DNA of 46,114 nt from Segeticoccus rhizosphaerae (GCF_009192725.1 NZ_VOHR01000003.1:1-46114); one strand, 5' to 3'. Counted from the first letter of the stretch, positions 9,553 to 27,155 are shown. Notes: generated by a model not told the origin, from the letters alone. Made by a program: numbers and translations.

Positions 9553-9574
9553 AGACTCGGTAGCCTTCCCCAGT

Positions 9575-9604: not shown

Positions 9605-9728
9605 TCAGCGTAGAGCGCCGACTGATGCCTTGTGGCCGCTTTCGGCAATCCCGGGCGACGCTTGAACACGGCACGCGCGCAGACGGTTACGATGCTGCTG
9701 CCTTCACTACATCGACGATGGGAACACC

Positions 9729-10229: not shown

Positions 10230-10765
10230 GCTTGTCGATTCTGGTGACCGTGGGCTCCGACTACCACCCGTTCAACCGGTTGGTGGGCGGCGTCGAACGC
10301 TGGCTGGGACAGCCGTCCGCCGCGGGACTGGAGGTCTTGTTCCAGTACGGCACGGCCGATCGTCCGGGGCGGGGGGAATGTCACGACTACCTTGCGCACG
10401 ACGAGCTGATCGACCGACTGAGCTCGAGTGACATCGTCGTGACGCAGGGCGGCCCGATGGGCATCCTCGAAGTGCGGCGGTGCGGACGCATCCCGATCGT
10501 CATGCCGCGACTGCATGACTTGGGTGAGGTGGTCGACGACCACCAGGTGGCCTTCTGCCGCCAGTTGGCCAGCACTGGTGACATCGTGCTCGTGGAGAAC
10601 GAGGACGAGCTGGTCGAGGCGCTGGACAAGGCGGTCGCCGATCCGACCCGCCTGGTGCTGACGGGTTCCACGGGTGATACCGACGCCCGGCCGGCCGTGG
10701 AGGCGTTCGCCCGAGCAGTGGAGCTGCTGCCGCCTCGGCGTCGCAACCGGTGGCGCCGCCGCTGA
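10226..10765 (+). CDS. Alg13/PssE-like glycosyltransferase catalytic subunit
   Basis: A 179-residue GT28 C-terminal-domain protein, the nucleotide-sugar-binding partner of the preceding Alg14-like subunit. It begins SLSILVTVGSDYHPFNRLV. It shows the donor-binding TQGGPMGILEVRRCGRIPIVMPRL block (about residues 72-95) and DDHQVAFCRQL, typical of the MurG/Alg13 fold. The GTG at 10226 is inside the ATG-less GTGA overlap with the upstream stop, the usual coupled arrangement. A basic C-terminal tail (PPRRRNRWRRR) may contact the membrane. The gene ends 13 nt before the convergent deacetylase gene. Confidence 0.88.
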   Translation: MSLSILVTVGSDYHPFNRLVGGVERWLGQPSAAGLEVLFQYGTADRPGRGECHDYLAHDELIDRLSSSDIVVTQGGPMGILEVRRCGRIPIVMPRLHDLGEVVDDHQVAFCRQLASTGDIVLVENEDELVEALDKAVADPTRLVLTGSTGDTDARPAVEAFARAVELLPPRRRNRWRRR

Positions 10766-11621: not shown

Positions 11622-14137
11622 CGCACGATCACCACGCCCACCGGCTCCAGGTCCAGCCGGCGCAGGTCGCGCCGCATCCGGGCCAGGTCGTCAGCCCTGG
11701 TCCGGGGGGACGCAACGATGACCGCGTGCGAGAAGCCGGTGGACAACGTGGCGAACTCTCGATTGAGCGCCGACGCCGCGCGACAGGCTTCCCGATCACG
11801 GTCATCGCCCCAGAACGTGGAGATCGGGCTGTGGTGGGCGAGCGGCTCCGCCAGCGAGGAAACACGGGAACAGTCCTCCACCGATGTGTCCGTTCGCCGC
11901 AGGTCCACCCGCCCGATCACGGGCAGGCCGCCGAGGGCGACCGCAGACCCGCGCCGTCCCAGCCGCCGCTTGGACCCACCGGCGTAGAAGGCCCACGTCA
12001 TCCCGACGAGGAGCCCGAGCATCAGGCCGCTCCCCGCCTTCTTGAGGTATCCATCCCTGGGACGGGCGACCTGGACGCCGCTGGTCACCTCACCGGCGAC
12101 CGGACGAGTGGCCTGGATCCGGGCGATCGTCGCAGCGGCCTTGCGCTCCTGGAAGACGAGGCCGGCCAGCCGCTTGCGCAGCACCGGGTTGACGTTGCTC
12201 CCGGCGTCCGCGACGACCTGCCGAGTGGTGCGGACCTGCTCGGTCAGGGCAGCGTCCTTCTGCTGCATGACCTTCAGGTAGGCGCCACTGCTCGCCTTGA
12301 TCGACTTGTTCCGGCTTTCGAGAACCGCCGCGACGGCGGCCTCGACCCCCGCCGTCGCACGAACGGCGTCCGTGTCCTGGTAGCGGATGTTGAGGATGCG
12401 CGTGTTTGTCTGGGCAGTGATCCTGATCCGTTCCCTGATCTGGGAAGAAGGTTCGTCGCTGCCGATCGCTGAGGCGACCGCCTCCACCACGGGGTCGGAG
12501 GTGGCGAGCTGGGCTTCGCTGTCCATGGACAGCGAGCGCACGCCAGGGAGGGCGCGTGCCTCGCCGGGGAGGAACACGGACTGCCGGGCGAAGACCGGCG
12601 GACCCTGCCAGGCCTGCAGGCCCGCACCAGCGGCCCCGCCGATCGCCGCGAGCAGCACGATGGGCACGAGACGTCTGTTGATGGGGTTGGTGAGCTCACT
12701 GAGCGGGCGGTCGATCGGAGCCGCTGGCCGGCGGTTGCGCAGCCGCGGCGCGCGCAACCATGCACCATGGCGCTCGGCGCGTTCTCGCCACAGCAGCCCG
12801 ACCGCGATCATGCCGAGGAACAGTCCGGGCCCGACGGCGCCGTAGACGGGCATGGTCACGAACTGACAGACGAGGACGCACAGTCCGGCGATCGCCGTCG
12901 GCGACGTGAGCCGGATGTGGGCCCAGGCCTGGATGAGCATGAATCCCAGGTAGAGGAGGGTGCCGACCAAGCCGGTCGCGAAGAGCAGGAGCCACAGCTG
13001 GCCCTGGGTACCGAGTGGGGGAGGCGAACACTTCGGGCACTGGGCCGTCGCCCCGGCGGCGATCGAGACGAAGTTGCCCTGCACGTCACGGGTGCTGCCG
13101 AAACCGATCACCGGGGACCCGCTCAGGGCGCTCTCCGCGGTAAGGGTCCCGAGGTTGGTCCGGCCCTGGTTGCTGTGTGGGGTGTGGATCCGGTCGGTGA
13201 TCAAGGACCCGAGCGGTGACACCGCGACGAGGCCACCGCCGAGCGCGAGACACACCAGCAGTGTCAACAGGGCGCGCCCACGTCCGATCAGCGCCAGTCG
13301 AACTGCCACGAACAGGCCGCTCGCGATCAGGGCCAGCCACATGCCGCGGTTGAGCGAGGACACGATGGGGATCGCGGCCAGCGCCAGGACCGCGGGCGCG
13401 GCCCAGCGACGCCAGCCGGCGTCACGGCGGAACCACTCTAGGACCAGGAACGGCATGGTGCAGGCGATTGCCAGGCCCCACTCATTGGTGAAGGTGAAGG
13501 GCGCGCTCGGGCGCGGTTCGGCGTAGCCCAGGAAGTCCTGGATCTGTGCGGTCGCCGGATGGATGAGGCTCCTGACGAATCCGTTCGAGGCCAGACCGTG
13601 GGGCAGGAGCATCTCCAGCACAGACGGGAACTGCAGGTGGGGCAGGAACACCCCCAGCAGACCGCCGCCCACCAGCACGAGGAACAGGTAGCTCAGAGCC
13701 CGGGTGATCCGACGAGTGGGAAGCGTCTTGCGTGTGTTGCCGACGTAGAGCAACGCGACCGTCGCGCACAGGTACCAGAGGGCGCGATAGGCGAACGTCA
13801 CGTAGCGAGCGCTGCTGTTGCCGGGCACCGCACCCGGTGCGTCCACCTGCAGCACGAAGACGCCACTCACCAGCCAGACGAGGAAGAGCAGCCACGTGCC
13901 GAAGCCCTGGGGCACCCGGATCTGCCGCTGCCGCACCAGGTGCAGCAACATCGGGACGCTGAAGATGAGGAACGCGAACTCCTGCAGGCCAAGCAGCCAC
14001 CACAGCGGCATACCGGCGAACAGGGCGACCAATGGCCAACCGGGCCGGAAGAACTTGAAGCTCGCCCGCACGGGTCGGCTTCTCTGTGGCACCAGGCGCG
14101 GGCGTGGCGGCGCCGTGGCCAGCTCGGACGCAGTCAT
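11618..14137 (-). CDS. O-antigen polymerase/ligase (Wzy_C) fused to a Wzz chain-length module
   Basis: An 839-residue protein with two membrane modules. Residues about 35-452 form a polytopic Wzy/O-antigen ligase unit with the SSLNRGMWLAL signature (260-270) and a long extracytoplasmic loop (305-385). Residues about 490-510 are a TM, 511-695 a Wzz-like extracytoplasmic domain with a coiled coil (about 605-675), and 701-721 the closing TM. A cytoplasmic tail (722-839) retains BY-kinase-like pieces (CRAASALNREFATL, HAVIVASPRTRADD) without a Walker A. So the polymerase and its length regulator are one chain. The frame is uninterrupted, with composition uniform through the junction. The ATG at 14137 shares 1 nt with the upstream sulfotransferase stop (TGATG). 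Confidence 0.85.
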   Translation of the reverse strand: MTASELATAPPRPRLVPQRSRPVRASFKFFRPGWPLVALFAGMPLWWLLGLQEFAFLIFSVPMLLHLVRQRQIRVPQGFGTWLLFLVWLVSGVFVLQVDAPGAVPGNSSARYVTFAYRALWYLCATVALLYVGNTRKTLPTRRITRALSYLFLVLVGGGLLGVFLPHLQFPSVLEMLLPHGLASNGFVRSLIHPATAQIQDFLGYAEPRPSAPFTFTNEWGLAIACTMPFLVLEWFRRDAGWRRWAAPAVLALAAIPIVSSLNRGMWLALIASGLFVAVRLALIGRGRALLTLLVCLALGGGLVAVSPLGSLITDRIHTPHSNQGRTNLGTLTAESALSGSPVIGFGSTRDVQGNFVSIAAGATAQCPKCSPPPLGTQGQLWLLLFATGLVGTLLYLGFMLIQAWAHIRLTSPTAIAGLCVLVCQFVTMPVYGAVGPGLFLGMIAVGLLWRERAERHGAWLRAPRLRNRRPAAPIDRPLSELTNPINRRLVPIVLLAAIGGAAGAGLQAWQGPPVFARQSVFLPGEARALPGVRSLSMDSEAQLATSDPVVEAVASAIGSDEPSSQIRERIRITAQTNTRILNIRYQDTDAVRATAGVEAAVAAVLESRNKSIKASSGAYLKVMQQKDAALTEQVRTTRQVVADAGSNVNPVLRKRLAGLVFQERKAAATIARIQATRPVAGEVTSGVQVARPRDGYLKKAGSGLMLGLLVGMTWAFYAGGSKRRLGRRGSAVALGGLPVIGRVDLRRTDTSVEDCSRVSSLAEPLAHHSPISTFWGDDRDREACRAASALNREFATLSTGFSHAVIVASPRTRADDLARMRRDLRRLDLEPVGVVIVR

Positions 14138-15024
14138 CAGGCCGCCGGCTCGCGCGTGAGGCTCCAGGGCGGCGTCTCGTGCAGCAGCTCCGCGAGGCGC
14201 TCGTTGGCTTGCCGAAAGTGGTCCGCGAGCCTCGCGCGTGCGCTTGCGCTCATGTCCTGCACCGCCGGCCGCGCGTTGTAGCGGTCGAACCGCTGCGGGG
14301 ACACGCTGCCCAGGCCAAGGAACGCGCCAAGCGCGGCGAACTCCTGCCCCGGTTGCTCGAAGAACCGCTCGCTGTACATGATGTGCAGTTGCTCGCGCGG
14401 GAAGAGCTGCAGAATCCGCTCGAGCTGGTCCGCGTAGTCACCGCGGCGGCGGTAGGCATGGTGCCGATGGGTGAAGCTCTCGTATGTCGGGTCGCGCCGC
14501 ATCCGGTCGTACTCACCCAGGAGCCGCTCGTCCTCGAGGGCCAGCGCGGTGTCGAAGTCCTCGCGCTCGAACCCCCGGGCGCTCTCGTGCTTCCACGCGG
14601 AGTAGGCCCGCTCCACGGGGTCCCTGAGCATGGCGACCAGCTTGACGTCCGGCATCTCGCGCGCCAGCCTCTCCATCGCAAAGGGATGGAACATGTAATA
14701 GCCGCTCGCCTCGAAGACGACGGGGTGACCGTGTTGCCGGGTCCGCAGCCGGGCCGAGGCCCGCAAGGGGAAATGTCCGCGGTACCAGTCGAACCCGCGG
14801 TCGTAGTTGACGTCGAAGTAGTTGATGCCCTTGTGGAAGGTCGGCCGCACCACCTGCGGGTGCTCCATCAGCGCCCGGAACAGGGAGGTGGTGCCGCACC
14901 GCTGGCCACCGATCATGATGAAGTCGGGCAGCACCCGCGCGCCGGCCGTGGCGCCCCCGAGAGCGACGTATCCCCGGCGGCCGAGTCGTTGCAGCGGTTC
15001 GGGGACCGCCTTGCGCACGCTCAT
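14137..15024 (-). CDS. PAPS-dependent sulfotransferase (heparan sulfotransferase-like)
   Basis: A 295-residue cytosolic sulfotransferase. The 5'-phosphosulfate loop is FIMIGGQRCGTTSLF (about 35-49). The 3'-phosphate-binding segment is MLRDPVERAYSAWKHE. GINYFD and FEASGYYMFHP follow the order seen in heparan N-/O-sulfotransferases that act on polysaccharides. It would transfer sulfate from PAPS to the polymer or its lipid-linked precursor. The ATG at 15024 is chosen because it overlaps the upstream TGA (ATGA) and has GGGGTGGAG 6 nt ahead; an ATG at 15042 is the alternative. It is followed with 1-nt overlap by the polymerase fusion, tying sulfation to polymer assembly. Confidence 0.88.
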   Translation of the reverse strand: MSVRKAVPEPLQRLGRRGYVALGGATAGARVLPDFIMIGGQRCGTTSLFRALMEHPQVVRPTFHKGINYFDVNYDRGFDWYRGHFPLRASARLRTRQHGHPVVFEASGYYMFHPFAMERLAREMPDVKLVAMLRDPVERAYSAWKHESARGFEREDFDTALALEDERLLGEYDRMRRDPTYESFTHRHHAYRRRGDYADQLERILQLFPREQLHIMYSERFFEQPGQEFAALGAFLGLGSVSPQRFDRYNARPAVQDMSASARARLADHFRQANERLAELLHETPPWSLTREPAA

Positions 15025-15875
15025 GATCCGCTCCACCCCCATCGTTCCATCACCGGGATGCCGAAGTCGGTCTCGAGTCTGCGGACCTCGGAGTCGAGCT
15101 GCTCGCGCACGTACATCGCGTCCTCGGCCGACAGCCGCGGGGCCCGGTCACCCAGTTGTTTGTAGAGCAGCCGATGGGTCAGCGGTGACCCCTTGACCTT
15201 GCCGACCAGCTTGGCGCCGTCGTGGTCGCGCACCACTCTTGCGGCAGTGCGGATCGCTCGGGCAAGAGGCACGAAACGTGCGCCGCTGGCGGGCAGTCTG
15301 CTCTCGAGCGCCGACTCGTCCAGCGTCATGGGGGTCAGGCCGAGCCAGCGGACGACCTGGTTCGTGAAGGCCTGTGGGTCAGCCTTGAGGTCATCGAACA
15401 GGGCGATGAGCAGTTGGTCGCGGTCCAGGTGTTCCAGGAAGCGAGACAGCTGGGTTGCGTAGCGACCGTGTTCGAGCAGCTCGGGACGGGTCTGCAGGGT
15501 GGCCCGGAACGTCGTCTCACCCTCGCCGTGCTTGAGCATGTAGAGGTAGGACGAAAAGGCCCGTTCGGCCGGCTCCCGCAGGGTCACCATCACACGAGGC
15601 CGACCAAGGTCCGCGGTGATGCGTTTCGGAGCGTCCGGGCAGGCCAGGTAATCGGGGCACACCTCGCCGACGACCCGATGCTGCGGGGTGGCGCCGCGGA
15701 ACTGGGACGCGTACCAGCTCACCCCGCGGTCGTAGTAGCGGTCGAAGTAGTAGAGGTCCTTCGCGGGGGAGAGGAAGATCTGGGGGTGTTGTGCGAGCGC
15801 CATGTGCAGCCACGAGGAGCCCGCCTTGTCGGGACCCACGTAGAGGAAGTTGGGCAAGGTGGCCGAATGTGCCAT
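15021..15875 (-). CDS. PAPS-dependent sulfotransferase, second in operon
   Basis: A 284-residue sulfotransferase. The PAPS loop FLYVGPDKAGSSWLH (about 10-24) has GSS in place of the common GTT. The 3'-phosphate site is TLREPAERAFSSYLYM. DLYYFDRYYDRGVSWY and VVGEVCPDYL match the polysaccharide/tyrosylprotein sulfotransferase style. It is clearly paralogous to the next gene downstream but diverged in the middle third, suggesting a different position or sugar. The ATG at 15875 shares 1 nt with the upstream stop (TGATG); the longer open frame lies inside the upstream gene. Its stop overlaps the next start by 4 nt. Confidence 0.87.
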   Translation of the reverse strand: MAHSATLPNFLYVGPDKAGSSWLHMALAQHPQIFLSPAKDLYYFDRYYDRGVSWYASQFRGATPQHRVVGEVCPDYLACPDAPKRITADLGRPRVMVTLREPAERAFSSYLYMLKHGEGETTFRATLQTRPELLEHGRYATQLSRFLEHLDRDQLLIALFDDLKADPQAFTNQVVRWLGLTPMTLDESALESRLPASGARFVPLARAIRTAARVVRDHDGAKLVGKVKGSPLTHRLLYKQLGDRAPRLSAEDAMYVREQLDSEVRRLETDFGIPVMERWGWSGS

Positions 15876-17854
15876 CAGGACAGGCCCCTTCCCGTGAGGC
15901 GCGCAGCCTTGAGAGCGATGACCGGCTCCAGGCCGGTCGCCGCCTGCGCCACGGCGAGGTAGGCGTGGGGAGCGAGCGGATAGCGAACCAGGGCCTTCGA
16001 TGCCGTCCGCAGCGCTGCCCGGCGCCGCCCCAGCGAGGACTGGGCGAACGCTATCTGCCCGAGGATGCGGGCGTGACCTCGGCGGCTCGCGCGCAGTTCC
16101 GGGTGGATCGTCAGGAGGTACTCGAGGGCCTGGATGTTGTTGTCCTGACGCGCCAGGAACCACGACTGGACGTTCTTGCGAATGTCGGCCAGCGGCTCCT
16201 TGACCACCCCGATCTGGCCAACTCTGGCGACGCGAAGCACGAATTCGTAGTCCTCCCCGTACGCGTGCGGCAGCGTCTCGTCGTAACGTCCGGCCTTGGC
16301 GAAAGTGTCCCGCCGCATCATCAACGTGGAGGAGTGCAGCTCCTTCACGCGGTTGTGGACGAGAGTGGACAAGGGGATCCGGGCGGCACGCGCCGGCCAG
16401 TCCCTGACCCGGTCGGGGAAGAGCAGTCGGATGCCGGAGCCCACCACCAGCAGGTCGGGCTGCTCGCGCAGCAGCTGCACCTGCCTGGTCACCTTGTCGG
16501 TGTGCCAGAGGTCGTCGTCGTCGCAGGTGGCGATGAACTCCCCCTTGGCCACCTCGAGTCCGCTGTTGCGCGAGCCGGCAAGGCCGGGCAGGTGCCTGTT
16601 GCTCAGGACCTTGATCTCACGGTCGACCGTTCCCCGCGCCGTCAGCGACTGGTCCTCCGGCTCCTGGTCGTGGATGACAAGGATCTCGATGGGACCGGCA
16701 TAGTCCTGCGCGACGATCGTGTCCAAGGTCTCGCGGACGAGCTCCGGCCGACCGCGGGTGGAGACCACCACGGAGACCATGCCGGTGATACCGCCGGAGT
16801 CAGCTGTTGGCGATTCGGCACCTGCGGCCGGTTCGAGACGACTGTTCACAGTGATCAAGGGTTCCGTTCTCTGGGCAGAATTCGGCGTAGCGCTCGGCGT
16901 GGACGGCGACGGGTCACGGCGACTGCCGAAAGGCAGGCCGATCGTCGAGGCGATGAGCCGGTCGCGGCGGGAGAGGTGGTTGCGCCAGGCCTCGTCGAGG
17001 CGAAGCTGCACCGTGCCCTCGACGAATCTCGAAGGATTGCCGGACAGTCCGTGGCTGGACCCGAGACTGACCTCACCGTCCCGGACGTGGTCGAGCCAAC
17101 CGGGCTGAGGTGGGAGGCCGACCTCGGCCAGCACACGGCTGACGTGACCCGGCGCGTCCCGCACGAGGTCCTCGTAGTGGACCAGAGCCGTCGGGATCCG
17201 CCTGGTCCGGAGCAGGCCGGTCTCGGCGTGGTTGACCGACCAGCGAGCAGCCGTGATGGCGATGCTCCGGCGTTCCATCTTCTCGACCTCGTGTGTGGCC
17301 TGGGGCCGCTCGACATCCTTCTGCATGGAATAGGCCACACCGCGGACGTCACGCACGACGTGGACCACCCGAAGGTTGATCTCGGATCCGCAGAGTGCGA
17401 GCGCCTGGGCCGGCCACTTGCTGGCGTCCACCACATGGCTTGCCCCTGCCGTCGCCAGGACGGCGGAGTACAGCGTGGCGTACAGACCGCGGTACTCCGC
17501 AGCGCGCGCGCGGAAGCCCGCGGCCCGGATCGGGCTCAGCAGCTGGGCGATGTGCCGCTGCCGCGCCACCCCTGCCTGCAGCGCCCCCATGTGGTCGAGG
17601 ACGTCGGTGCTCCAGCCGCCGAAGGCACGCTCGCCGACGGAGACCCAGAACGGACACTCCGAGAAGTGCTCGCCGCAGCCGCACCGCTCGTCGCCACGCG
17701 CCACCCGGCGGGGTATGTCGATCAGCTCGCCGACGTTGACGAACCCGGGCACGCTGCCCAGCACCCGCTCGAGCAGGGTGCTGCCGGACCGGCTGGCCCC
17801 AGCAAGGTAAACGACACTCGGCGGGGCGGTTGCCCCGACGCCCTCCACGCTCAT
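15875..17854 (-). CDS. Sulfotransferase-GT2 glycosyltransferase fusion
   Basis: A 659-residue two-domain enzyme. Residues 13-308 form a sulfotransferase with PAPS loop YLAGASRSGSTLLE (16-29), a CGCGEHFSECPFW cysteine motif (58-70) and 3'-phosphate site HVVRDVRGVAYSM (165-177). A Ser/Pro/Thr-rich linker (309-355) leads to a GT2 domain (357-575) with VSVVVSTRGRPELV, AGSRNSGLEVAKGEF and the CDDDDLW metal motif (444-450). HAYGEDYEFVLR follows. The tail (580-659) is helical, TPR-like. It could add a sugar and sulfate in sequence. The ATG at 17854 has GGGGAAGGA upstream. It heads the operon running to 10779. There is no frameshift or stop at the junction. Confidence 0.87.
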   Translation of the reverse strand: MSVEGVGATAPPSVVYLAGASRSGSTLLERVLGSVPGFVNVGELIDIPRRVARGDERCGCGEHFSECPFWVSVGERAFGGWSTDVLDHMGALQAGVARQRHIAQLLSPIRAAGFRARAAEYRGLYATLYSAVLATAGASHVVDASKWPAQALALCGSEINLRVVHVVRDVRGVAYSMQKDVERPQATHEVEKMERRSIAITAARWSVNHAETGLLRTRRIPTALVHYEDLVRDAPGHVSRVLAEVGLPPQPGWLDHVRDGEVSLGSSHGLSGNPSRFVEGTVQLRLDEAWRNHLSRRDRLIASTIGLPFGSRRDPSPSTPSATPNSAQRTEPLITVNSRLEPAAGAESPTADSGGITGMVSVVVSTRGRPELVRETLDTIVAQDYAGPIEILVIHDQEPEDQSLTARGTVDREIKVLSNRHLPGLAGSRNSGLEVAKGEFIATCDDDDLWHTDKVTRQVQLLREQPDLLVVGSGIRLLFPDRVRDWPARAARIPLSTLVHNRVKELHSSTLMMRRDTFAKAGRYDETLPHAYGEDYEFVLRVARVGQIGVVKEPLADIRKNVQSWFLARQDNNIQALEYLLTIHPELRASRRGHARILGQIAFAQSSLGRRRAALRTASKALVRYPLAPHAYLAVAQAATGLEPVIALKAARLTGRGLS

Positions 17855-18147
17855 GCCGATCCTTCCCCTCAATGACCCGCCCAGCGTAGGTCGGTCCGGG
17901 GGAATTCGAAGGGCGATTCGGCAAAGTGGCACGGACCCCCTGGAAGGGGCCCTCGGGTGACTAGTCAATTCGGGCCATTTTGGGCTGATGGTCGTCTGAC
18001 TTCCTCGTTTTCCTGACGCGGGGCCCTCCGAGGAGGTTCTCTGGCACCCGTACCGCCATAGGCGGTGGCCGTTGTGGCCCGAAGGGGAAGAGCGGACAAA
18101 TCAGGGGCTCATGTCGATGAGCCGCTCATGGTGATGAGGTGACTGCC
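17855..18147. promoter_or_regulatory. Divergent intergenic region with a hairpin before the PKD protein gene
   Basis: About 290 bases separate the minus-strand sulfotransferase operon from the plus-strand secreted protein, so both promoters should be here. No clear -35/-10 pair was found. AT-richer stretches occur around 17960-18015. A perfect hairpin, GGCTCAT-GTCG-ATGAGCC (18106-18123), lies just upstream of the AGGTGA ribosome-binding site (18137-18142) of the next gene. It could affect its translation. No gene was seen. Confidence 0.4.
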
Positions 18148-21100
18148 TTGCGCAAGACACGGCTGGCTTTCCTTTCGGTCCTCGCCCTTGTCGCCGCGCT
18201 GTTGGGGGTGGTGGCTCCAGTGGCCGTCCCCGCTGCAAGCGCGGCCACAGTGAACGACGTCCCCGGAGCGGTTCCCGTGTCCGGCACTCCGGCGATCGAC
18301 GACGGCCAGGTGCTGGCCATCACGCAGGTGGGTGACACGGCCTTCGTAGGGGGCAACTTCACGACGATCAGCCAAACGCCCAGCAGTACCACCATCAACC
18401 AGCCGTACATCATGGCGTTCGATGCCAACACCGGAGCCCTCCGGACGACCTTCCGCCCACAACTCAATGGTCTGGTGCAGGCACTACTGCCGGGTCCGAC
18501 CGCGGACACCGTCTACGTCGGCGGCGCCTTCACCCAGGTGAACGGCCGATCAGAGTCTCGTCTGGCCCTGCTCGACGTGAACACCGGTGAGCCGATCACC
18601 TCGTTCAACGGACCAAACATGAACGCGGGTGTGCAGGCGCTGGGTCGGCGCGGTGACCGTCTCTACGTCGGGGGCTACTTCGACCAGGTCGGCGGCGACC
18701 CGGCGGGTGGCCTCACCTCGGTCAACGCCACCACCGGCGGCGTGGATGGCTTCCTGAACGTGCAGCTCACCGAGCACCACAACACCTCGCCCGGCGGGAA
18801 GCAGGAGCCGATCGGGGTGCGGGACATGGACCTCAGCTCGGACGGTTCCCGCCTCGTCGTCGTCGGGAACTTCCGCAAGGCGGACGGCCTCGACCGCGAC
18901 CAGGTGGTCCTGATCAACACCGCCGGCACGCAGGCAACCGTTCAGCCGGACTGGAACACCAACCGCTACCAGCCACTGTGCTTCTCGTGGGCGTTCGACG
19001 CCACGGTCCGTGGCGTCCGCTTCGCGCCCAGCGGCAACTGGTTCGCGATCACCGCAACCGGCGGTCACAACACGGGAACCCTCTGCGACGGTGTCGCACG
19101 GTTCGAGACCGCGGCCACGGGCACCGACATCCAGCCGACCTGGTTCTCGGCCACCGGTGGTGACACCCTTCGTGGCATCGCAGTCACCGACAAGGTCGTC
19201 TTCGTCGGCGGGCACATGCGCTGGATGAACAACACCTTCGGCAGTGACTACGCGGCGCAGGGTGCCGTCCCGCGGCCTGGACTGGCGGCGGTGGATGCAC
19301 AGAACGGTGTCCCGGTGGCCTGGAACCCCGGCCGCAACCCACGTGGCGCAGGCGCCTTCGCCCTCTACGCCGGTCCCGACGGGATCTACGTCGGCAGTGA
19401 CACCGAGTGGATCGGAAACCGGGATTACCGGCGCAACCGGATCGCCTATTTCAAGTTCGACGAGGGCAAGCAGCTGGCATCGACGACGTCCCCCGCGCTG
19501 CCCGGCAACGTGATGATCGGTGGTTCCCAGGGCAGCACGGCGAACAGCAACGTGCTCTACCGCGTCAACGCCGCGGGTCCGGCACTGCAAGCGGTGGACT
19601 CCGGTCCCAACTGGGCAGTGGACGACAACCCGCAGAGCCCCTACCACAACAGCGGAAACAACGCTGCCACCTATGACCCGGTGCCTTCGGTGGACGGCAC
19701 GGTGCCGGCGTCGACACCGCGCTCGGTCTTCGACTCCGAGCGGTGGGACGGCGGCGGCGACCCGGAGATGGCCTGGAACTTCCCCGTGCCAGCTGGACAA
19801 CAGGTCTCGGTGCGGCTCTACTTCGCCAATCGGTGCAGCTGCACCGGCACCGCCGGCCAGCGTGTGTTCAACGTCGACATCGACGGCCAGCGCGTTCTGT
19901 CGAACTTCGACATCGTTGCCTCCGCTGGTGACCAGACCGGCACCATGCGACAGTTCAACGTCACCAGTGACGGTTCGGTCGACATCCAGTTCGGACACGT
20001 CACCGAGAACCCGCTGATCAACGGCATCGAGATCGTCAAGGCCGGCGGTGGCGGCGCGACGCCGCCTCCGCCGGGTACCCTCAGCCAGGTCACCTTCGAC
20101 GGCCAGACGGCCGGGACCCTGCAGCCAGTGAACGCGGGCGACCTCGACTGGAGCAAGACGCGCGGCGCCTTCATGCTCGGCTCCACGCTCTACTACGCAG
20201 ACGTCAGCGGCGCCCTCTACCAGCGGGTGTGGTCGAACGGTTCCTTCGGGGCGGCGACCAAGCTCGACCCCTATCACGACCCCAAGTGGGACGGGGTGCG
20301 CACCGGGAGCGGTGACAGCGTCTACGACGGCGTGACGGTCGCCTTCTACGGGCAGTTGAGCAACCTGACCAGCATGTTCTACTGGAACGGGCGCATCTAC
20401 TACACGCTGTTCGGCCAGAGCACCTTGCGCTACCGCTACTTCACGCCTGACGCGGGCATCGTCGGCCCGGACGAGTTCACGGCGTCGACCGACCCGATGT
20501 GGTCGGACGTCGGCGGGGCCTTCCGCGACGGCAACACGCTCTACTTCGTCAAGCAGTCGACGGGAGCTCTCTGGAAGATCTCCCTGGCGAACGGTACCGT
20601 CACGGGCTCGGCGACCAAGGTCAACGACCCTGCGTCCGGCGGGATCGACTGGCGCGGCAGGTCCGTCTTCATCGGGCCGCAGGCGCCGGTGAACAAGCCT
20701 CCGGTGGCGGCATTCACGTCTGGTTGCACAGCGTTGGACTGCACGTTCGACGGCACCGGGTCCTCTGACCCGGACGGCAGCGTGGCCTCGTGGTCGTGGA
20801 ACTTCGGTGACGGCACGACCGCCACCGGGTCGAGGCCCTCCCACAGCTACACCAGCCCCGGCAGCTACCCGGTCACGCTCACCGTGACCGACAACAACGG
20901 CGCGACGGGCCGGGTGCAGAAGACCGTGCAGGTGTCCGCGCCGCCGAACCAGGCTCCGCTGGCGTCGTTCTCGGTGGATTGTCAGGGTCTGTCGTGTTCG
21001 TTCGATGGGTCGGGGTCGTCGGATCCGGATGGCAGCATCGCGTCGTATGCGTGGTCGTTCGGTGATGGTGGGACGTCGACGGAGGTCAAGCCGAGCCATG

Positions 21101-22731
21101 TGTATGCCGGGGATGGTCAGTTCACGGTGAAACTGACGGTGACCGACAACGGTGGTGCCACGGGTGTGGTGTCCAAGTCGGTGTCGGTGTCGTCGGCTCC
21201 GGTGGGTGCCGGGATCGCGTTCGTGGCTGGCCAGAGTGTCACGGTCAGCTCGCGAACGCCGTCGGTGCCGGTGCCGGACGGGGTGTCGGCTGGTGACGTG
21301 TTGGTGTTGGCGGTTGACGCGAACAACACGGCGGTGGACATGGACGCTCCGGCGGGGTGGACCGCGGTGGACACGGTGTCGATCGACGGGATGTCCTCGA
21401 AGGTGTGGTGGAAGGTCGCCGACGCCGGTGATGCCGGTTCTCCGGTGCAGGTGTCGCTGAGCAAGTGGTCGAAGTCGGGTCTGCAGGTGATGGCGTACTC
21501 GGGTGTGGACGCGTCCAACCCGGTGGGTGCGTTTGCCAGCGCGTCGGACACCACTCGGACCAACAGCCACACGGCGCCGGCGGTGTCGTTGTCGCCGGGT
21601 GACGTGGCGCTGCGCTTGTGGAGCGACAAGTCGACCAACACGACCTCGTGGTCGGTGCCGGCCGGTCAGTCGGTCCGGGGCGAGGCGTATGACGATGGCA
21701 GTGGCTCGATGAGCGTGCTGGCGGCGGACGGCGGCCCGGAGGCGGGCACCACGGCAGGTGCCGTGACCGCCACTGCCAACTCGCGCGGCTCCCAGGCCAT
21801 CATGTGGACCGTCCCCCTGCGGGAGGCTTCAGCTGGTGGCGGCAACGCCACACCCCTGGCGTCGTTCTCGGTGGATTGTCAGGGTCTGTCGTGTTCGTTC
21901 GATGGGTCGGGGTCGTCGGATCCGGATGGCAGCATCGCGTCGTATGCGTGGTCGTTCGGTGATGGTGGGACGTCGACGGAGGTCAAGCCGAGCCATGTGT
22001 ATGCCGGGGATGGTCAGTTCACGGTGAAACTGACGGTGACCGACAACGGTGGTGCCACGGGTGTGGTGTCCAAGTCGGTGTCGGTGTCGTCGGCTCCGGT
22101 GGGTGCCGGGATCGCGTTCGTGGCTGGCCAGAGTGTCACGGTCAGCTCGCGAACGCCGTCGGTGCCGGTGCCGGACGGGGTGTCGGCTGGTGACGTGTTG
22201 GTGTTGGCGGTTGACGCGAACAACACGGCGGTGGACATGGACGCTCCGGCGGGGTGGACCGCGGTGGACACGGTGTCGATCGACGGGATGTCCTCGAAGG
22301 TGTGGTGGAAGGTCGCCGACGCCGGTGATGCCGGTTCTCCGGTGCAGGTGTCGCTGAGCAAGTGGTCGAAGTCGGGTCTGCAGGTGATGGCGTACTCGGG
22401 TGTGGACGCGTCCAACCCGGTGGGTGCGTTTGCCAGCGCGTCGGACACCACTCGGACCAACAGCCACACGGCGCCGGCGGTGTCGTTGTCGCCGGGTGAC
22501 GTGGCGCTGCGCTTGTGGAGCGACAAGTCGACCAACACGACCTCGTGGTCGGTGCCGGCCGGTCAGTCGGTCCGGGGCGAGGCGTATGACGATGGCAGTG
22601 GCTCGATGAGCGTGCTGGCGGCGGACGGCGGCCCGGAGGCGGGCACCACGGCAGGTGCCGTGACCGCCACTGCCAACTCGCGCGGCTCCCAGGCCATCAT
22701 GTGGACCATCCCCCTCCGCGTCTCCCAGTAA
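18148..22731 (+). CDS. Giant secreted beta-propeller / malectin-like / PKD repeat protein
   Basis: A secreted protein of about 1527 residues. A Sec signal (RKTRLAFLSVLALVAALL, cleavage near ASA-A) is followed by a propeller (about 40-480) built from repeats such as TAFVGGNFTTI, VYVGGAFTQVNG and LYVGGYFDQVGG. A malectin-like carbohydrate-binding domain (about 525-632) and a PPPPG linker come next, then a second repeat region (about 650-845). Three PKD domains follow (each with a Cys-x5-Cys pair and SSDPDGS). The last two are each followed by a ~200-residue beta module starting GVSAGDVLVLAVD. TTG 18148 has AGGTGA 5 nt upstream; GTG 18139 is the alternative. It probably binds or organises the polymer at the surface. 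Confidence 0.82.
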   Translation: MRKTRLAFLSVLALVAALLGVVAPVAVPAASAATVNDVPGAVPVSGTPAIDDGQVLAITQVGDTAFVGGNFTTISQTPSSTTINQPYIMAFDANTGALRTTFRPQLNGLVQALLPGPTADTVYVGGAFTQVNGRSESRLALLDVNTGEPITSFNGPNMNAGVQALGRRGDRLYVGGYFDQVGGDPAGGLTSVNATTGGVDGFLNVQLTEHHNTSPGGKQEPIGVRDMDLSSDGSRLVVVGNFRKADGLDRDQVVLINTAGTQATVQPDWNTNRYQPLCFSWAFDATVRGVRFAPSGNWFAITATGGHNTGTLCDGVARFETAATGTDIQPTWFSATGGDTLRGIAVTDKVVFVGGHMRWMNNTFGSDYAAQGAVPRPGLAAVDAQNGVPVAWNPGRNPRGAGAFALYAGPDGIYVGSDTEWIGNRDYRRNRIAYFKFDEGKQLASTTSPALPGNVMIGGSQGSTANSNVLYRVNAAGPALQAVDSGPNWAVDDNPQSPYHNSGNNAATYDPVPSVDGTVPASTPRSVFDSERWDGGGDPEMAWNFPVPAGQQVSVRLYFANRCSCTGTAGQRVFNVDIDGQRVLSNFDIVASAGDQTGTMRQFNVTSDGSVDIQFGHVTENPLINGIEIVKAGGGGATPPPPGTLSQVTFDGQTAGTLQPVNAGDLDWSKTRGAFMLGSTLYYADVSGALYQRVWSNGSFGAATKLDPYHDPKWDGVRTGSGDSVYDGVTVAFYGQLSNLTSMFYWNGRIYYTLFGQSTLRYRYFTPDAGIVGPDEFTASTDPMWSDVGGAFRDGNTLYFVKQSTGALWKISLANGTVTGSATKVNDPASGGIDWRGRSVFIGPQAPVNKPPVAAFTSGCTALDCTFDGTGSSDPDGSVASWSWNFGDGTTATGSRPSHSYTSPGSYPVTLTVTDNNGATGRVQKTVQVSAPPNQAPLASFSVDCQGLSCSFDGSGSSDPDGSIASYAWSFGDGGTSTEVKPSHVYAGDGQFTVKLTVTDNGGATGVVSKSVSVSSAPVGAGIAFVAGQSVTVSSRTPSVPVPDGVSAGDVLVLAVDANNTAVDMDAPAGWTAVDTVSIDGMSSKVWWKVADAGDAGSPVQVSLSKWSKSGLQVMAYSGVDASNPVGAFASASDTTRTNSHTAPAVSLSPGDVALRLWSDKSTNTTSWSVPAGQSVRGEAYDDGSGSMSVLAADGGPEAGTTAGAVTATANSRGSQAIMWTVPLREASAGGGNATPLASFSVDCQGLSCSFDGSGSSDPDGSIASYAWSFGDGGTSTEVKPSHVYAGDGQFTVKLTVTDNGGATGVVSKSVSVSSAPVGAGIAFVAGQSVTVSSRTPSVPVPDGVSAGDVLVLAVDANNTAVDMDAPAGWTAVDTVSIDGMSSKVWWKVADAGDAGSPVQVSLSKWSKSGLQVMAYSGVDASNPVGAFASASDTTRTNSHTAPAVSLSPGDVALRLWSDKSTNTTSWSVPAGQSVRGEAYDDGSGSMSVLAADGGPEAGTTAGAVTATANSRGSQAIMWTIPLRVSQ
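20959..22707 (+). repeat. 852-bp perfect direct repeat (PKD plus module) inside the secreted protein
   Basis: Bases 20959-21810 and 21856-22707 appear identical by eye and give identical translations in more than one frame, so silent differences are unlikely. The period is 897 bp (299 codons), with a 45-bp unique spacer. The repeats use GAT, TGT, TAT and GGT where the neighbouring PKD copy uses GAC, TGC and GGC for the same residues. Confidence 0.9.
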
Positions 22732-22741
22732 AGGAAGTGTC

Positions 22742-23461
22742 ATGACCAGGCGATCTTCTGCAGTCATTCTCGGATGCGTGGTGCTGACGGCCGTCGCGGG
22801 CTGCAGCAGCACTGCTTCGGACTCGGCGAGCCCTGGTCAGTCCGCCGGCGCTGGCGCGAGTGCGCACTCGACTGCGCCGGCGGCCGTGAGCTCCCCGAGC
22901 GCCGGCAACAGCACCAAGCCCACCGTGTCGTCGAAGGGGTCCGCCAAGGCCAAGACCTCCGGCAGCGCCACGCACGGCACGCCGCAGGACCAGGGCGAGA
23001 CCCACGCGGCCAAGGACGATAGCGCGGTGGGGTCGACCAAGCCCGGTGGGGAGCCCTCGCTCACCGCCGCCTCGGTGCTCAACCGCCTGCCCAACCCGGC
23101 CGGATCCTGCCCGGCTGTGGGCGGCGGGCGAGACGTGCGCTCCGGCAGCATGGCGGCGGGGCCCTTCGACACGGCCAAGAAGCAGTTCGCGACGAGCCGT
23201 TCGACCTCGCCGGAGCCGACCAAGGTCCGTCTCTACTGGATCCCGAAGTCGGGCAAGGCGGTCTCGGGCGGACTGGTGCTGAAGGTCACCAAGGTGGCCG
23301 CCGGAGCCAAGACCAACACCGTGCGGGACGGGGTCGTGTCGGACGCTGCCGGGGTCAGCTTCTACGACAGCCAGGTCCCGATCGCGGGACCTGGGACCTG
23401 GCAGATCAAGGCGACGTCCGGTCAGGACACCGGCTGCTTCCGCGTCACTTTCAAGCGGTAG
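22742..23461 (+). CDS. Secreted lipoprotein, function unknown
   Basis: A 239-residue lipoprotein. The signal peptide ends with lipobox LTAVAGC (lipid-modified Cys about residue 20). A ~90-residue low-complexity Ser/Ala/Gly/Thr/Lys linker follows, then a compact C-terminal domain (about 110-239). That domain holds two cysteines (AGSCPAV and DTGCFRVTF) that could form a disulfide, and strands such as TKVRLYWIPKSG. It starts 10 nt after the PKD protein stop with AAAGGAAG as ribosome-binding site, so the two are probably co-transcribed. The linker would let the domain reach through the wall, perhaps as a partner of the PKD protein. No family recognised. Confidence 0.75.
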   Translation: MTRRSSAVILGCVVLTAVAGCSSTASDSASPGQSAGAGASAHSTAPAAVSSPSAGNSTKPTVSSKGSAKAKTSGSATHGTPQDQGETHAAKDDSAVGSTKPGGEPSLTAASVLNRLPNPAGSCPAVGGGRDVRSGSMAAGPFDTAKKQFATSRSTSPEPTKVRLYWIPKSGKAVSGGLVLKVTKVAAGAKTNTVRDGVVSDAAGVSFYDSQVPIAGPGTWQIKATSGQDTGCFRVTFKR

Positions 23462-23496
23462 CCGACAACCAGATTCGGGCGGTAGCCGACAACCAG
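23455..23496. repeat. 18-bp direct repeat at the lipoprotein 3' end
   Basis: GCGGTAGCCGACAACCAG occurs at 23455-23472 and 23479-23496 (24-bp period). The first copy contains the TAG stop of the lipoprotein gene; the second lies in the short gap before the convergent sulfotransferase. It looks like a small local duplication. Confidence 0.8.
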
Positions 23497-23501
23497 CTCG
23501 C

Positions 23502-24362
23502 TCAAGTGAGGAGCCGGAACCGCCGCCGGTTGAGCTCCTCGAGCACGTCCCCGGCGCCCGCTTCCAGCACCGCGACGTCGCCGGCGTCCACCTTGGCGCG
23601 CCAGGCGTTCGCGACCACGGCGGGCGAGCGGTCGAGATTGTGCAGGGCAGAGGAGTTCTCGGCCGAGGCGGCCCCACCGCCGAAGAACCGTGCGGCACTG
23701 TCGCTCCAGGTCAGTGAGACTGCTGCGAAGAGTGCCTTGGCGGCCGATTCGCCCCCGGTGGCCAACTCCTCGTGCGACACGACCATCGCCGCCGGCAGGC
23801 TGGACAGGTCCTCGAGTGCCATCCGGTAGAGCGCGGCCCACGTGGCCCCCAGATTGCCCACCTCGTCGGCCGGCCAGCGCGTGGCGCCGCCCCCGTGCGT
23901 GGACGGAATCCGTTCGAGCTGTTGGAGCTCAACGGGGTTCGCCGCCCAACCGACGCGGCGGAAGCTCGCCAACATGGCCCCCGGGTGGCGATAGACGATC
24001 ACCGGCAGGGCACCCGTCACGGAGGTCAGCATGGGCAGGGACAACAGCGCGAAGGGATCCTTGACGATCATGCGCGTCGAGGGCAGGGGGGCTGCCCACT
24101 GCCGGTTGCCGTAGCGGCTGTAGACTAGGGGGTTCAACCCCCGGTATGCCGTGTTCAGCCGGCGACGTTGCTGCCTCGACGGCTCGCGGAGCCGGGTCCA
24201 GCCGTCGAGGGTGCCACCGAGTGCGTACTGGGAGCCGCGGGGGTTCATCGGCTCCCGTCCCGCCAGTGCGGTCCCCGCCGCGCAGGAGAGCAGGCGCGCC
24301 AACCACGTGGTGCCCGAGCGCGGCATACCCGTGACCAGCAAGGGAGCCGGGCGCGGGCACAT
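23502..24362 (-). CDS. PAPS-dependent sulfotransferase, last in the TauE operon
   Basis: A sulfotransferase of about 286 residues. The PAPS loop is LLVTGMPRSGTTWLARLL near the N-terminus, and YRHPGAMLASFRRVGW is the 3'-phosphate-binding segment. MIVKDPFALLSLP and HEELATGG fit the Sulfotransfer_3 style. The C-terminus (VLEELNRRRFRLL) is helical. The ATG at 24362 makes a TGATG junction with the upstream stop; an ATG at 24377 is also possible. No good Shine-Dalgarno precedes either, so coupling to upstream translation is likely. It is the fourth gene of the operon TauE-like, GH26-like lipoprotein, sulfotransferase, sulfotransferase. Confidence 0.85.
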   Translation of the reverse strand: MCPRPAPLLVTGMPRSGTTWLARLLSCAAGTALAGREPMNPRGSQYALGGTLDGWTRLREPSRQQRRRLNTAYRGLNPLVYSRYGNRQWAAPLPSTRMIVKDPFALLSLPMLTSVTGALPVIVYRHPGAMLASFRRVGWAANPVELQQLERIPSTHGGGATRWPADEVGNLGATWAALYRMALEDLSSLPAAMVVSHEELATGGESAAKALFAAVSLTWSDSAARFFGGGAASAENSSALHNLDRSPAVVANAWRAKVDAGDVAVLEAGAGDVLEELNRRRFRLLT

Positions 24363-25183
24363 CAGTCCCACGTCCATCTGGCGCGGGCGGTGAGGTCGTG
24401 CACGTCGTAGCCGTAGTCGGCCATGGCGTCCCCGAACTTGTCCTCGATGATGCGGCGGGAGCGGCGCTGCAGCGGGTTACCGGTGGCCATGCTGTCCCAT
24501 CGCCGCAGGTAGGGCAACGAGCGTGCCGGGTCGAGGCGATGGTGCGGGATGTCACCAGTCAACCCCAGGAACAGCCGTAGTCGTTCCAAGGTCTCGTGCG
24601 GCTCGTGCACCAGGTCCTCGTAGCGAAGGACCAACAGGCGGTCGAGGTGCCGTGCGTCCGCCCGCAGGACCTCGTGGGCCACGACCCAGTGCCGCACGAG
24701 CTTGGGCAGGCTCGTCCAGCGAGCCCACTTCTTGGTCGAGAGCGCGACGACGACGGGGTTGCGGATCACCACGACGAGGCAACTGCCCGGGAAGACGCTC
24801 TGGAGGAAGCGGCCCATGACCAGGTTGGGCGGCGACTTCTCGACCAGCAGGTCGCGCTCGACGTCCCAGAAGGGCGTCCACGAGCGGAGCAGGTCCGCGC
24901 TCGTCGATGCGACGCGAAGGGGAGACTCCTCGGTCACGTGGGCTCGGGGGTCGAAGGCGAACACACCGGCACCGCCGTAGGACCGGGCGATCGGGTAAAC
25001 GGACTGCAGGTGCTGTCCCTCGTCCTCCTCCACCCCGGTCGCCGTCAGACCAGCCACCTGAGGGTGTTCGGCCAGCATCCTCGTCAGCGGCGTCGTGCCG
25101 CTGCGGTGCAGACCACCGACGAAGACGAGTCGGCGCGGATCGATGCTCAGGTCGAGCCTCTGGGAAGCGGTGTCAGAACTCAT
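24362..25183 (-). CDS. PAPS-dependent sulfotransferase
   Basis: A 273-residue sulfotransferase. The PAPS loop is LVFVGGLHRSGTTPLTRML (about 19-37) and the 3'-phosphate site VVIRNPVVVALSTKKW. LLVEKSPPNLVMGRFLQ is the central substrate-proximal stretch seen in this family. LVLRYEDLVHEP and YGYDVHDL close the domain. The ATG at 25183 overlaps the upstream TGA (ATGA); the 15 extra codons of the longer frame lie in the upstream gene. It is diverged from the other four sulfotransferase domains of the locus, suggesting a distinct acceptor site. Confidence 0.87.
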   Translation of the reverse strand: MSSDTASQRLDLSIDPRRLVFVGGLHRSGTTPLTRMLAEHPQVAGLTATGVEEDEGQHLQSVYPIARSYGGAGVFAFDPRAHVTEESPLRVASTSADLLRSWTPFWDVERDLLVEKSPPNLVMGRFLQSVFPGSCLVVVIRNPVVVALSTKKWARWTSLPKLVRHWVVAHEVLRADARHLDRLLVLRYEDLVHEPHETLERLRLFLGLTGDIPHHRLDPARSLPYLRRWDSMATGNPLQRRSRRIIEDKFGDAMADYGYDVHDLTARARWTWD

Positions 25184-26214
25184 CGTGTTTCGCCATCCTG
25201 GAGGGTCGAGGTGTTGACGTTGAGCCACGGACTGGCCCCGGCGTCGATGACGCCTTGGAGGACCGCACGGTTTCGGCCGAAGCGGTAGTCGCAGGTGTCG
25301 CTTGTCTTGCTGTCCCAGAGCGTGATGGCTTTGACCTGCGGGTACTTGCGGAGGACGGAAGGGATGGAGCGATACCAGTTCGCGGTGCGCTGAGCATCGT
25401 CCGGATAGAGCACCGAGCCGGACTCGCTGATCATCGCCGGCTTGTCCGGATCGATGCCCAGCGCGGGGCCATGCTCGTGGACCCAGTCATAGAAGGGCTT
25501 GAGCCGCTCTTCGAAGGAGCGGTAGGCGTCGTCCTTGATACGACCCGACTTGCAGCCGGACTGGTTGTAGACGTTCCAGCTGATCCAGTCGACGTAGCGG
25601 TTGCCCGGCCAGATCGATCCGGCGCGGGAGAGGTTCTGCTCACGGCCGGTCATGACCCAGACCCAGACGGCGTTCGTTGCCCCCGCGCTCTCGTAGACCT
25701 GGTGCACGTGTCGCCAGGCCGCCTTGTAGTCAGCTGCGCTGCCACGGGTGCCGAGCTTGCGCTGTTGGTTCCCCTCCTGCTCGAAGGTCAGGAAGACGGG
25801 AGTCTTCAGGCTTGCGATCCCCTCGGCCTGGCGTCGCAGCGAGTCGTCGTAGTCGCCCCGGGCGATCGACACATACGAGATCTGCTGGCTGTCGCCATAC
25901 ACGCGCGCCGCGATGCTCAGGTGCAGGATCATGCCCTTGGCCACCATCTGGCGCTCGGCGTCGGTCGGGATCGGTTGCTCGAGGTCGTGGTAGTTGTAGA
26001 CGAGATCGAAGGGTCGTTTGACCTGCTGCTCCAAAGTCGCGAGCGCCGACTCGGACTTGGGTTGGGTGGAGACGCCCCACAGCGCGCCGCACGACGGCAC
26101 GAGATCCTTGGAAAGAGTGCACTCGTTGCTGACCGGTGCCGACTGGTCGGAGGAGCAGGCCGCCGCACCCATCAGGACGAGCACGGCCAGCGCTGCCCGC
26201 CAGGATCTCTTCAC
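25180..26214 (-). CDS. GH26-like glycoside hydrolase lipoprotein
   Basis: A 344-residue lipoprotein with signal peptide KRSWRAALAVLVLMGAAAC, the lipobox Cys near residue 20. The barrel domain resembles GH26: FLTFEQEGN carries the candidate acid/base Glu and PAMISESGS the candidate nucleophile Glu. YVDWISWNVYNQSGC and AITLWDSKTSDTCDYRF line the expected cleft. It parallels the Tat-secreted homologue at 4068-5063 but is membrane-anchored. The GTG at 26214 overlaps the upstream TGA by 4 nt; the longer frame runs antisense-like through the exporter gene and is rejected. Co-translation with an exporter and sulfotransferases suggests it edits the sulfated polymer. Substrate unknown. Confidence 0.75.
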   Translation of the reverse strand: MKRSWRAALAVLVLMGAAACSSDQSAPVSNECTLSKDLVPSCGALWGVSTQPKSESALATLEQQVKRPFDLVYNYHDLEQPIPTDAERQMVAKGMILHLSIAARVYGDSQQISYVSIARGDYDDSLRRQAEGIASLKTPVFLTFEQEGNQQRKLGTRGSAADYKAAWRHVHQVYESAGATNAVWVWVMTGREQNLSRAGSIWPGNRYVDWISWNVYNQSGCKSGRIKDDAYRSFEERLKPFYDWVHEHGPALGIDPDKPAMISESGSVLYPDDAQRTANWYRSIPSVLRKYPQVKAITLWDSKTSDTCDYRFGRNRAVLQGVIDAGASPWLNVNTSTLQDGETR

Positions 26215-27155
26215 CGCTGCGCCGCCACGGCCTGCTTGGCCTTCACCCGGTGGTGCGCCAGGGCTGGGAAGCCGTAGTGGCGGCGCACCAGCATCCACAG
26301 CAGAGGAGCGATGCACAGCACGCCCCCGAGTGCCATCGCCGTGGTCACGGTGGGGAGCCCGAGCATCTTCAGCGACGAGGCCAGCAGCACGAAGGCCAGT
26401 GCGCGGCGCACCAGGCCACCGGGGGCCCGGGAGGAGAGGTGTGCGCCGACCCACACACCCGGAATGGACCCCACGAGCAACGACACGGTCACGCCCAGGT
26501 GCAGGTCGCCGAAGAAGATGTGGCCCAGGGCCGCCGCCATCACGAGGGGGACCGCCTGGACCAGGTCGGTGCCCACGAGCTGGCTCGCCTTGAGGCCGGG
26601 GTAGAGCGCCATGAGGGCGATGATGATCAGCGAGCCGGCTCCCACGGAGGTCAGGCCGACGACCACGCCACCCACGATGCCGACGGCGACGGTGGACAGG
26701 ATGCGGACCTTGATCACCGGCGGCCCACCGGGGAGTGCCTCGCCCTTGCCGTCCCGACGTCTGGCCCGCTCCAGCAGTCGGAGGTAGGCGCGGATCGTCA
26801 AGCCGGTCGCCGCCACGAGCAGCGCCCCACCGAGGGCGACCTGGATGACGTGCTGGACATGCTTTCCGTCTCCGAGGGCCCGCGCGATCAGCACGCCGCC
26901 GAACGCAGCGGGGACCGAGCCCACGACGAGCCACTTCACGAGGTTGAGGTTCACCGTGCCGTGGCGGAGGTGGACGAACGAGCCCACCGGCTTCATGAAC
27001 GCACTGGCAACGAGGTCGCTCGAGACGGCCGCGAGCGGCGGGACACCGAAGATCAGGACGAGGGCCGGCGTCATGAGCGCCCCACCCCCCATGCCGGTCA
27101 GGCCCACGATGATGCCGATCCCGAACGACGTCACCGTCATCACTGGATCGATCAC
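26211..27155 (-). CDS. TauE/SafE family sulfur-anion exporter
   Basis: A 314-residue membrane protein of the TauE/SafE (DUF81) family with about 8 helices in two halves. Each half carries the Gly-rich signature: GLTGMGGGALMTPALVLIFG in the first (about 18-37) and GLTSVGAGSLIIIALMALYPG in the second. Family members export sulfite, sulfoacetate or related anions; some may import sulfate-type substrates. Here it is the first gene of an operon with two sulfotransferases, so a link to sulfate/sulfite balance is likely but inferred. A GTG at 27155 is used; ATG 27140 is possible. A weak minus-strand promoter (TTGGAC, 15 bp, TACGAC; plus coordinates 27221-27247) precedes it. Confidence 0.88.
   Translation of the reverse strand: MIDPVMTVTSFGIGIIVGLTGMGGGALMTPALVLIFGVPPLAAVSSDLVASAFMKPVGSFVHLRHGTVNLNLVKWLVVGSVPAAFGGVLIARALGDGKHVQHVIQVALGGALLVAATGLTIRAYLRLLERARRRDGKGEALPGGPPVIKVRILSTVAVGIVGGVVVGLTSVGAGSLIIIALMALYPGLKASQLVGTDLVQAVPLVMAAALGHIFFGDLHLGVTVSLLVGSIPGVWVGAHLSSRAPGGLVRRALAFVLLASSLKMLGLPTVTTAMALGGVLCIAPLLWMLVRRHYGFPALAHHRVKAKQAVAAQR

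Follow-up and report, generated by a model that had tools for sequence, protein, structure and literature searches.

A Wzx/Wzy-type cluster with five sulfotransferases in Segeticoccus rhizosphaerae, a candidate locus for a sulfated polysaccharide

What is made by a polysaccharide locus that carries five sulfotransferase (ST) genes? The question is raised by contig C223 of Segeticoccus rhizosphaerae (GCF_009192725.1, NZ_VOHR01000003.1, positions 1-46114), a stretch of 46,114 nucleotides, here called the window, from an assembly of 4.4 Mb in 761 contigs that is 95% complete. A sequence-only reading had proposed that the locus directs the synthesis of a sulfated exopolysaccharide. Our analysis supports this proposal, through the coupling of the genes in operons, the conservation of all five STs, the presence of genes for synthesis of 3′-phosphoadenosine 5′-phosphosulfate (PAPS) at homologous clusters, and the fusion of one ST to a glycosyltransferase. 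Judged by their sequences, the genes encode a priming transferase, glycosyltransferases, a flippase, a polymerase, a co-polymerase, five STs, a GH26 lipoprotein, a TSUP transporter and CysQ. We conclude that this is probably a Wzx/Wzy-dependent cluster for a sulfated surface polysaccharide or exopolysaccharide, and we infer from its gene content that the polymer would carry sulfate.

The five sulfotransferases and their operons

The five PAPS-binding ST domains (S1 to S5; Table 1) lie where the earlier reading had placed them within the Wzx/Wzy locus, and all exceed the Pfam thresholds. The 5′-phosphosulfate-binding (5′-PSB) loop is kept in each, as RCGTT in S1, KAGSS in S2, RSGST in S3 and RSGTT in both S4 and S5, and the Arg...Ser pair of the 3′-phosphate-binding (3′-PB) motif can be read in all five sequences. 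For S1 and S2, the match to the heparan-sulfate ST family covers most of the catalytic domain and includes both motifs. A profile built from S1 matches heparan sulfate 3-O-sulfotransferase 3 (3-OST-3) with an E-value of 2e-39 and N-deacetylase/N-sulfotransferase (NDST) with 3.5e-29; the sequence of S2 matches them at 5e-16 and 6e-12. NDST is therefore not the closest heparan ST to either protein, 3-OST scoring higher for both. In an alignment of 83 S1-type proteins, the PAPS residues R42, T45, R134 and S142 are invariant or nearly so.

The other three STs are of a different kind. Single-sequence phmmer searches with S3 or S4 returned nothing useful, and profiles and predicted folds were needed. 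The ST domain of S3 was modelled by AlphaFold with a mean predicted local distance difference test score (pLDDT) of 88.5, and its best Foldseek matches are sulfotransferases, with tyrosylprotein sulfotransferase (TPST) and the curacin ST first; S4 (pLDDT 78.9) has TPST as its best match. Given that the TM-scores are moderate (about 0.3-0.6), these predicted folds support the ST fold class and no particular subfamily. Stf0 and Stf1, of the type that the earlier reading had set as its own counter-case, rank below TPST or curacin-type STs in the Foldseek lists for both S3 and S4. S5 matches TPST2 (profile E 3e-14) and, over a short stretch only, the Nod-factor ST NoeE. Thus, S1 and S2 are of the heparan-sulfate type, whereas S3, S4 and S5 are of the tyrosylprotein/Sulfotransfer_3 type and are not heparan-like; a heparan grouping of all five does not hold.

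None of the five STs has a signal peptide. S1, S2, S3 and the polysaccharide deacetylase of the cluster show no hydrophobic segment of transmembrane (TM) strength, while S4 and S5 show only an internal core segment. Hence, we read the five STs and the deacetylase as probably cytoplasmic, where PAPS is made. The fusion of S3 to a glycosyltransferase points to a glycan as its acceptor.

Three runs of genes, S3-S2-S1-wzy-deacetylase, TauE-GH26-S5-S4 and wzz-kinase-wzx, have neighbours that overlap by 1-4 bases at their ends, if GH26 begins at the GTG at 26214. Translational coupling thus groups the STs into two operons, which they share with the polymer genes. Wzx, Wzy and Wzz are all present in the one locus. 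The kinase-wzx part forms an operon of its own in the window: S1 abuts wzy, and the kinase-like gene and wzx are found at a distance of 6-10 kb, still inside the cluster. The PKD gene, the two GH26-like genes and the kinase-like gene belong to the cluster set too. Outside this locus, a short contig (C747:8944-9720) bears the strongest Sulfotransfer_1 match of the genome, at 113 bits.

Conservation of the cluster and its sulfate supply

A profile search of genomes with the S1 alignment yielded 80 loci, nearly all actinomycete, from genera that include Nocardioides, Janibacter, Serinicoccus, Actinomadura, Micromonospora, Nocardiopsis and Geodermatophilus. Relatives of S1 (E <= 1e-30) occur in 71 of 395 genomes of the class and in 37 of the 138 genera sampled. 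The partners found in the 80 loci are wzy (77), the kinase-like gene (74), wzx (74), wzz (58), GH26 (50) and Alg13/14 (47), and none of 20 random 20-kb stretches of relatives holds any of the core partners. The exact order wzy-kinase-S1 is kept in 60 loci, and in 64 no more than 600 bp separate the kinase-like gene from S1. Of the 54 loci that hold the ST part of S3, six have it fused to the glycosyltransferase and many others have it directly beside a separate glycosyltransferase gene, as expected if both act on one sugar. Relatives of the malectin/PKD protein are found in 26 loci, and rarer, with flanks cut at 10 kb, are S2 (10), S4 (9), S5 (13) and the deacetylase (2). The earlier reading had suggested that the co-operonic deacetylase could expose amino groups for N-sulfation. 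The deacetylase and its coupling to wzy are confirmed, but N-sulfation finds no support, given this rarity and the higher scores of S1 and S2 against 3-OST.

Within the same family, Humibacillus sp. DSM 29435 keeps all five STs at 52-62% identity, in the order, from pth, cysQ, cysD, cysN, GH26-like, wzy, wzz-like, deacetylase, Alg13/14, wzz, kinase, wzx, S1-S4, GH26, PKD proteins and S5; Wzy and its Wzz-like part are two genes there and one fused gene in the window. Nostocoides sp. Soil756, also of this family, has the cluster, with S1, S3 and S4, between pth and mfd. The pth-mfd placement, which the earlier reading proposed to look for in other genomes, thus holds in Nostocoides, and Humibacillus has its cluster beside pth, but there is no mfd in the window, which ends at 46114. 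Genomes of a further genus of the class, one with large genomes, have a row made up of cysC, GH26, wzz, wzy, kinase, S1, wzx and an ST.

The sulfate-activation genes of relatives follow the cluster. Such genes are found at 32 of the 80 S1 loci versus one of the 20 random stretches; the lone random match, to cysN, is a 29%-identical GTPase that we do not take as CysN. Among relatives that have both CysD and CysH, the two are adjacent in 11 of 13 without the cluster versus one of eight with it (Fisher p 0.002, kinship overstating the independence of the genomes), and CysD lies within 20 kb of an S1-type ST in six of the eight with it. In cluster-bearing relatives, then, the ATP-sulfurylase genes have moved from the assimilatory CysH to the cluster. 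Of the genes related to sulfate activation, the window has just cysQ, at one edge, whereas Humibacillus and some other relatives have the activation genes in or beside the cluster. The CysQ-like gene noted earlier is real: it is a fragment cut by the contig edge and completed on contig C545, which overlaps C223 within cysQ to give the order glmU-prs-cysQ-rplY-pth.

The sequence-only reading had taken the TauE/SafE protein that heads one ST operon for an anion exporter. A transporter coupled to GH26-S5-S4 it is, but import is likelier than export. Copies 66-71% identical to it lie beside the gene for adenosine 5′-phosphosulfate (APS) kinase in three relatives, and beside cysD-cysN and an S1-type ST in a fourth; moreover, CysZ, the sulfate importer of Corynebacterium glutamicum, belongs to the TSUP family (PMC5840216). 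On these grounds, the TSUP transporter is likely a sulfate importer.

A second sulfation locus is found in the same genome on contig C445, where two STs lie among glycosyltransferase, aminotransferase and Glyphos-type genes together with a CysC-TauE-CysD-CysN run (L073 2056-3288, 4258-5166, 9203-13711). We considered C445 as the missing neighbour of the window and rejected this, since cysQ continues on C545; C445 is a separate locus. In this genome, 95% of which is covered, neither CysH nor sulfite reductase was found, with CysC, CysD and CysN present; with an assembly of that completeness, one missing contig could explain the absence. Most relatives carry both CysH and sulfite reductase.

Proposed pathway, rival explanations and known systems

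In the pathway that we propose, sulfate would enter through the TSUP transporter, and PAPS would be made by CysD, CysN and CysC, encoded elsewhere in this genome and in or beside the cluster in relatives. The five STs would use PAPS in the cytoplasm to sulfate different positions of an undecaprenyl-linked repeat unit, S3 working in step with its fused glycosyltransferase, and CysQ would clear the by-product 3′-phosphoadenosine 5′-phosphate (PAP). Wzx would then flip the unit and Wzy/Wzz polymerise it; outside the cell, the polymer may be trimmed by GH26 and bound by the malectin/PKD proteins. A bolder version, which we regard as doubtful, is a heparin-like, multiply sulfated Gram-positive polysaccharide, each repeat unit bearing sulfate at as many as five positions; its maker, lacking the CysH and sulfite reductase of the reductive branch, would use activated sulfate for sulfation only.

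Several points weigh against a sulfated polysaccharide as the product. A literature search gave no chemical evidence of sulfate on any such actinomycete polymer. The only CysD of this genome lies on C445, in the run beside the two further STs. The genomes compared share kinship, and counts across them are not independent. STs of the PF13469 type also sulfate proteins, lipids and polyketides, and S3, S4 and S5 are therefore not proven carbohydrate STs. Finally, 79 of the 83 S1-type proteins have Gly at the position of the 3-OST catalytic Glu (S1 residues 65-71, window 14812-14832), and S2 has an invariant Asp there; the Glu before x-H-F-F-D is thus absent in both. This Glu is the base in 3-OSTs, and the mechanism or acceptor of S1 should therefore be unlike theirs. 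By its sequence, S1 is related to the heparan STs but altered at the catalytic site; it differs from 3-OST and NDST further in that it and S2 are read as cytoplasmic, with no TM anchor.

Might the acceptor be something other than a free exopolysaccharide? The STs could sulfate a cell-wall-linked glycopolymer or a glycolipid, teichoic-acid-like or like the mycobacterial sulfolipids, the Wzx/Wzy product being ligated to the wall. This would fit the Glyphos_transf (CDP-glycerol) gene nearby (28872-30296) with a second flippase-like protein (32766-34121), the Glyphos-type genes around the STs of C445, and the appearance of Stf0 and Stf1 lower in the Foldseek lists. The ST genes are coupled to Wzy, however, and not to Glyphos genes, and relatives of the neighbouring Glyphos gene occur in only two of the 80 S1 loci; we consider this explanation improbable. 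We give still less credence to the view that S3, S4 and S5 are tyrosylprotein-type enzymes which sulfate secreted proteins (e.g., the PKD/malectin protein) or a small molecule rather than a glycan, even though TPST1/2 and curacin-type STs are the closest to them among solved structures. Across genera, S3 is either fused to a GT2 enzyme or next to one, S5 has its short match to NoeE, and since the STs lack signal peptides, any sulfation of secreted proteins would have to precede their export.

It could also be argued that CysQ, TauE and the Cys genes work in ordinary assimilation of sulfur, their closeness to the STs being accidental. CysQ and CysDN do function in general sulfur assimilation; nevertheless, the departure of CysD from CysH to the ST cluster in cluster-bearing relatives, and the failure to find CysH or sulfite reductase in this genome, make this highly improbable.

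A cluster for a sulfated surface polysaccharide or exopolysaccharide, the reading we prefer, has a close precedent. The wps-1 cluster of Actinoplanes missouriensis (AMIS_7280-7380), reported in June 2026, encodes Wzx, a heparan-sulfate-type ST, a kinase-like protein, Wzy and Wzz in a single run, and also has a GH26 and a second ST (PMC13390465). Deletion of wpsG, wpsH, wpsI, wpsJ or wpsK results in squashed sporangia, the mutant of the heparan-sulfate-type ST gene wpsH having the phenotype seen when the whole cluster is deleted; without AMIS_7390, an APS-forming gene next to the cluster, the defects are severe (PMC13390465). The authors propose a sulfated polysaccharide whose verification is awaited, its product being chemically unproven (PMC13390465). 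Wzx, Wzy, Wzz, the WpsH ST, the WpsI kinase-like protein and the WpsE GH26 protein all have counterparts in the window, and the published order wzz-wzy-kinase-ST-wzx, taken from the text of that paper and not from the A. missouriensis sequence, is that of many S1 loci. The window differs in having five STs versus two, and adds the deacetylase, the ST-glycosyltransferase fusion, the Wzy-Wzz fusion, TauE, Alg13/14 and the PKD protein. Hence, the earlier remark that sulfated polymers are little described in actinobacteria no longer stands: this kind of cluster has already been proposed from one actinomycete, and the window is a large, five-ST variant of it.

More distant systems have proven products. 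The xss cluster of Synechocystis makes synechan, a polymer proven by chemistry to be sulfated, and is likewise a Wzx/Wzy cluster with STs of distinct subfamilies; it is cyanobacterial, with two STs and eight glycosyltransferases, and the excerpts consulted describe no dedicated PAPS genes (PMC8205485). Sulfated capsule structures have been solved for Cobetia marina KMM 1449 and Vibrio sp. KMM 8419, in which the PAPS genes cysN/C and cysD cluster with STs, in Cobetia also with cysQ and a sulfate permease (PMC11766843, PMC11641403). Unlike the present case, these are ABC-transporter capsules of Gram-negative marine bacteria. The Vibrio authors call the pairing of STs with PAPS genes a hallmark (PMC11641403).

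In recent primary papers, the sulfated polysaccharides of bacteria are still treated as an essentially cyanobacterial trait (PMC13390465, PMC8205485). Beyond cyanobacteria, a few marine Gram-negatives make them. The gene evidence suggests that this potential extends widely through the class, to about a quarter of the genera sampled, and is tied to a dedicated PAPS supply. If this is true, heparin-like polymers, and carbohydrate STs that work in the cytoplasm, could be obtained from actinomycetes. Cultured strains with such clusters exist (Humibacillus sp. DSM 29435 and type strains of Micromonospora and Nocardiopsis), which makes the question directly testable.

Layout of the window and neighbouring genes

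The features assigned to the cluster are collected in Table 1.

Table 1. Assigned features of the cluster, in window coordinates.
Feature	Position	Strand	Evidence
cysQ (PAP phosphatase), 3′ part, truncated at the end of the contig	3..407	+	PF00459 E 3.4e-10; 70% identity to Humibacillus CysQ beside cysD-cysN
WbaP-type priming sugar-phosphate transferase, start codon estimated	2180..3760	+	PF02397 1e-70
Secreted GH26-like protein a, assignment weak	4068..5063	+	signal-like N-terminus; 29% to Humibacillus cluster protein; no Pfam match
Wzx flippase	5037..6707	-	PF01943 4.5e-11; 13 TM segments
Kinase-like protein, aminoglycoside phosphotransferase (APH) fold by motif, WpsI counterpart	6704..7966	-	HGDxxxxN...DWE in sequence
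Wzz-type co-polymerase	7963..9669	-	PF02706 1.5e-5; 2 TM segments
Alg14/Alg13-type two-part glycosyltransferase	9729..10765 (9729-10229, 10172-10765)	+	PF08660 1e-9, PF04101 3e-8
Polysaccharide deacetylase	10779..11621	-	PF01522 3.6e-23; 4 bp overlap with wzy; no signal peptide seen
Wzy polymerase fused to Wzz-like C-terminal part	11618..14137	-	PF04932 5.9e-5, under Pfam cut-off
S1, heparan-sulfate-type ST, WpsH counterpart	14137..15024	-	PF00685 6e-14
S2, heparan-sulfate-type ST	15021..15875	-	PF13469 1e-10
S3, N-terminal ST domain fused to GT2 glycosyltransferase	15875..17854	-	PF13469 1.4e-11, then GT2 6.8e-18
Secreted malectin/PKD-repeat surface protein	18139..22731	+	PF18911, PF11721
S4, Sulfotransfer_3-type	23502..24362	-	PF13469 8.5e-12
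S5, tyrosylprotein-ST-like	24362..25183	-	PF13469 6e-25
GH26-family lipoprotein, WpsE counterpart	25180..26214	-	profile match to GH26 enzyme labelled Endoglucanase H, 4e-17
TauE/SafE (TSUP) transporter, likely a sulfate importer	26211..27155	-	PF01925 2.6e-40

Beyond the transporter, positions 28872-43890 hold neighbouring glycopolymer genes: the Glyphos_transf gene, the second flippase-like gene, glycosyltransferases, and a pair made up of a nucleotidyltransferase and an Fe-ADH_2 (glycerol-1-phosphate-dehydrogenase-like) gene. Relatives of this pair flank the S1 cluster in 14 of the 80 loci, chiefly in Micromonospora. Finally, two different genes for PKD-type surface proteins contain perfect tandem duplications of about 850-890 bp, at 20959-21810 (repeat +897) and 34092-34985 (repeat +903), which may be very recent, gene-converted or an artefact of assembly.

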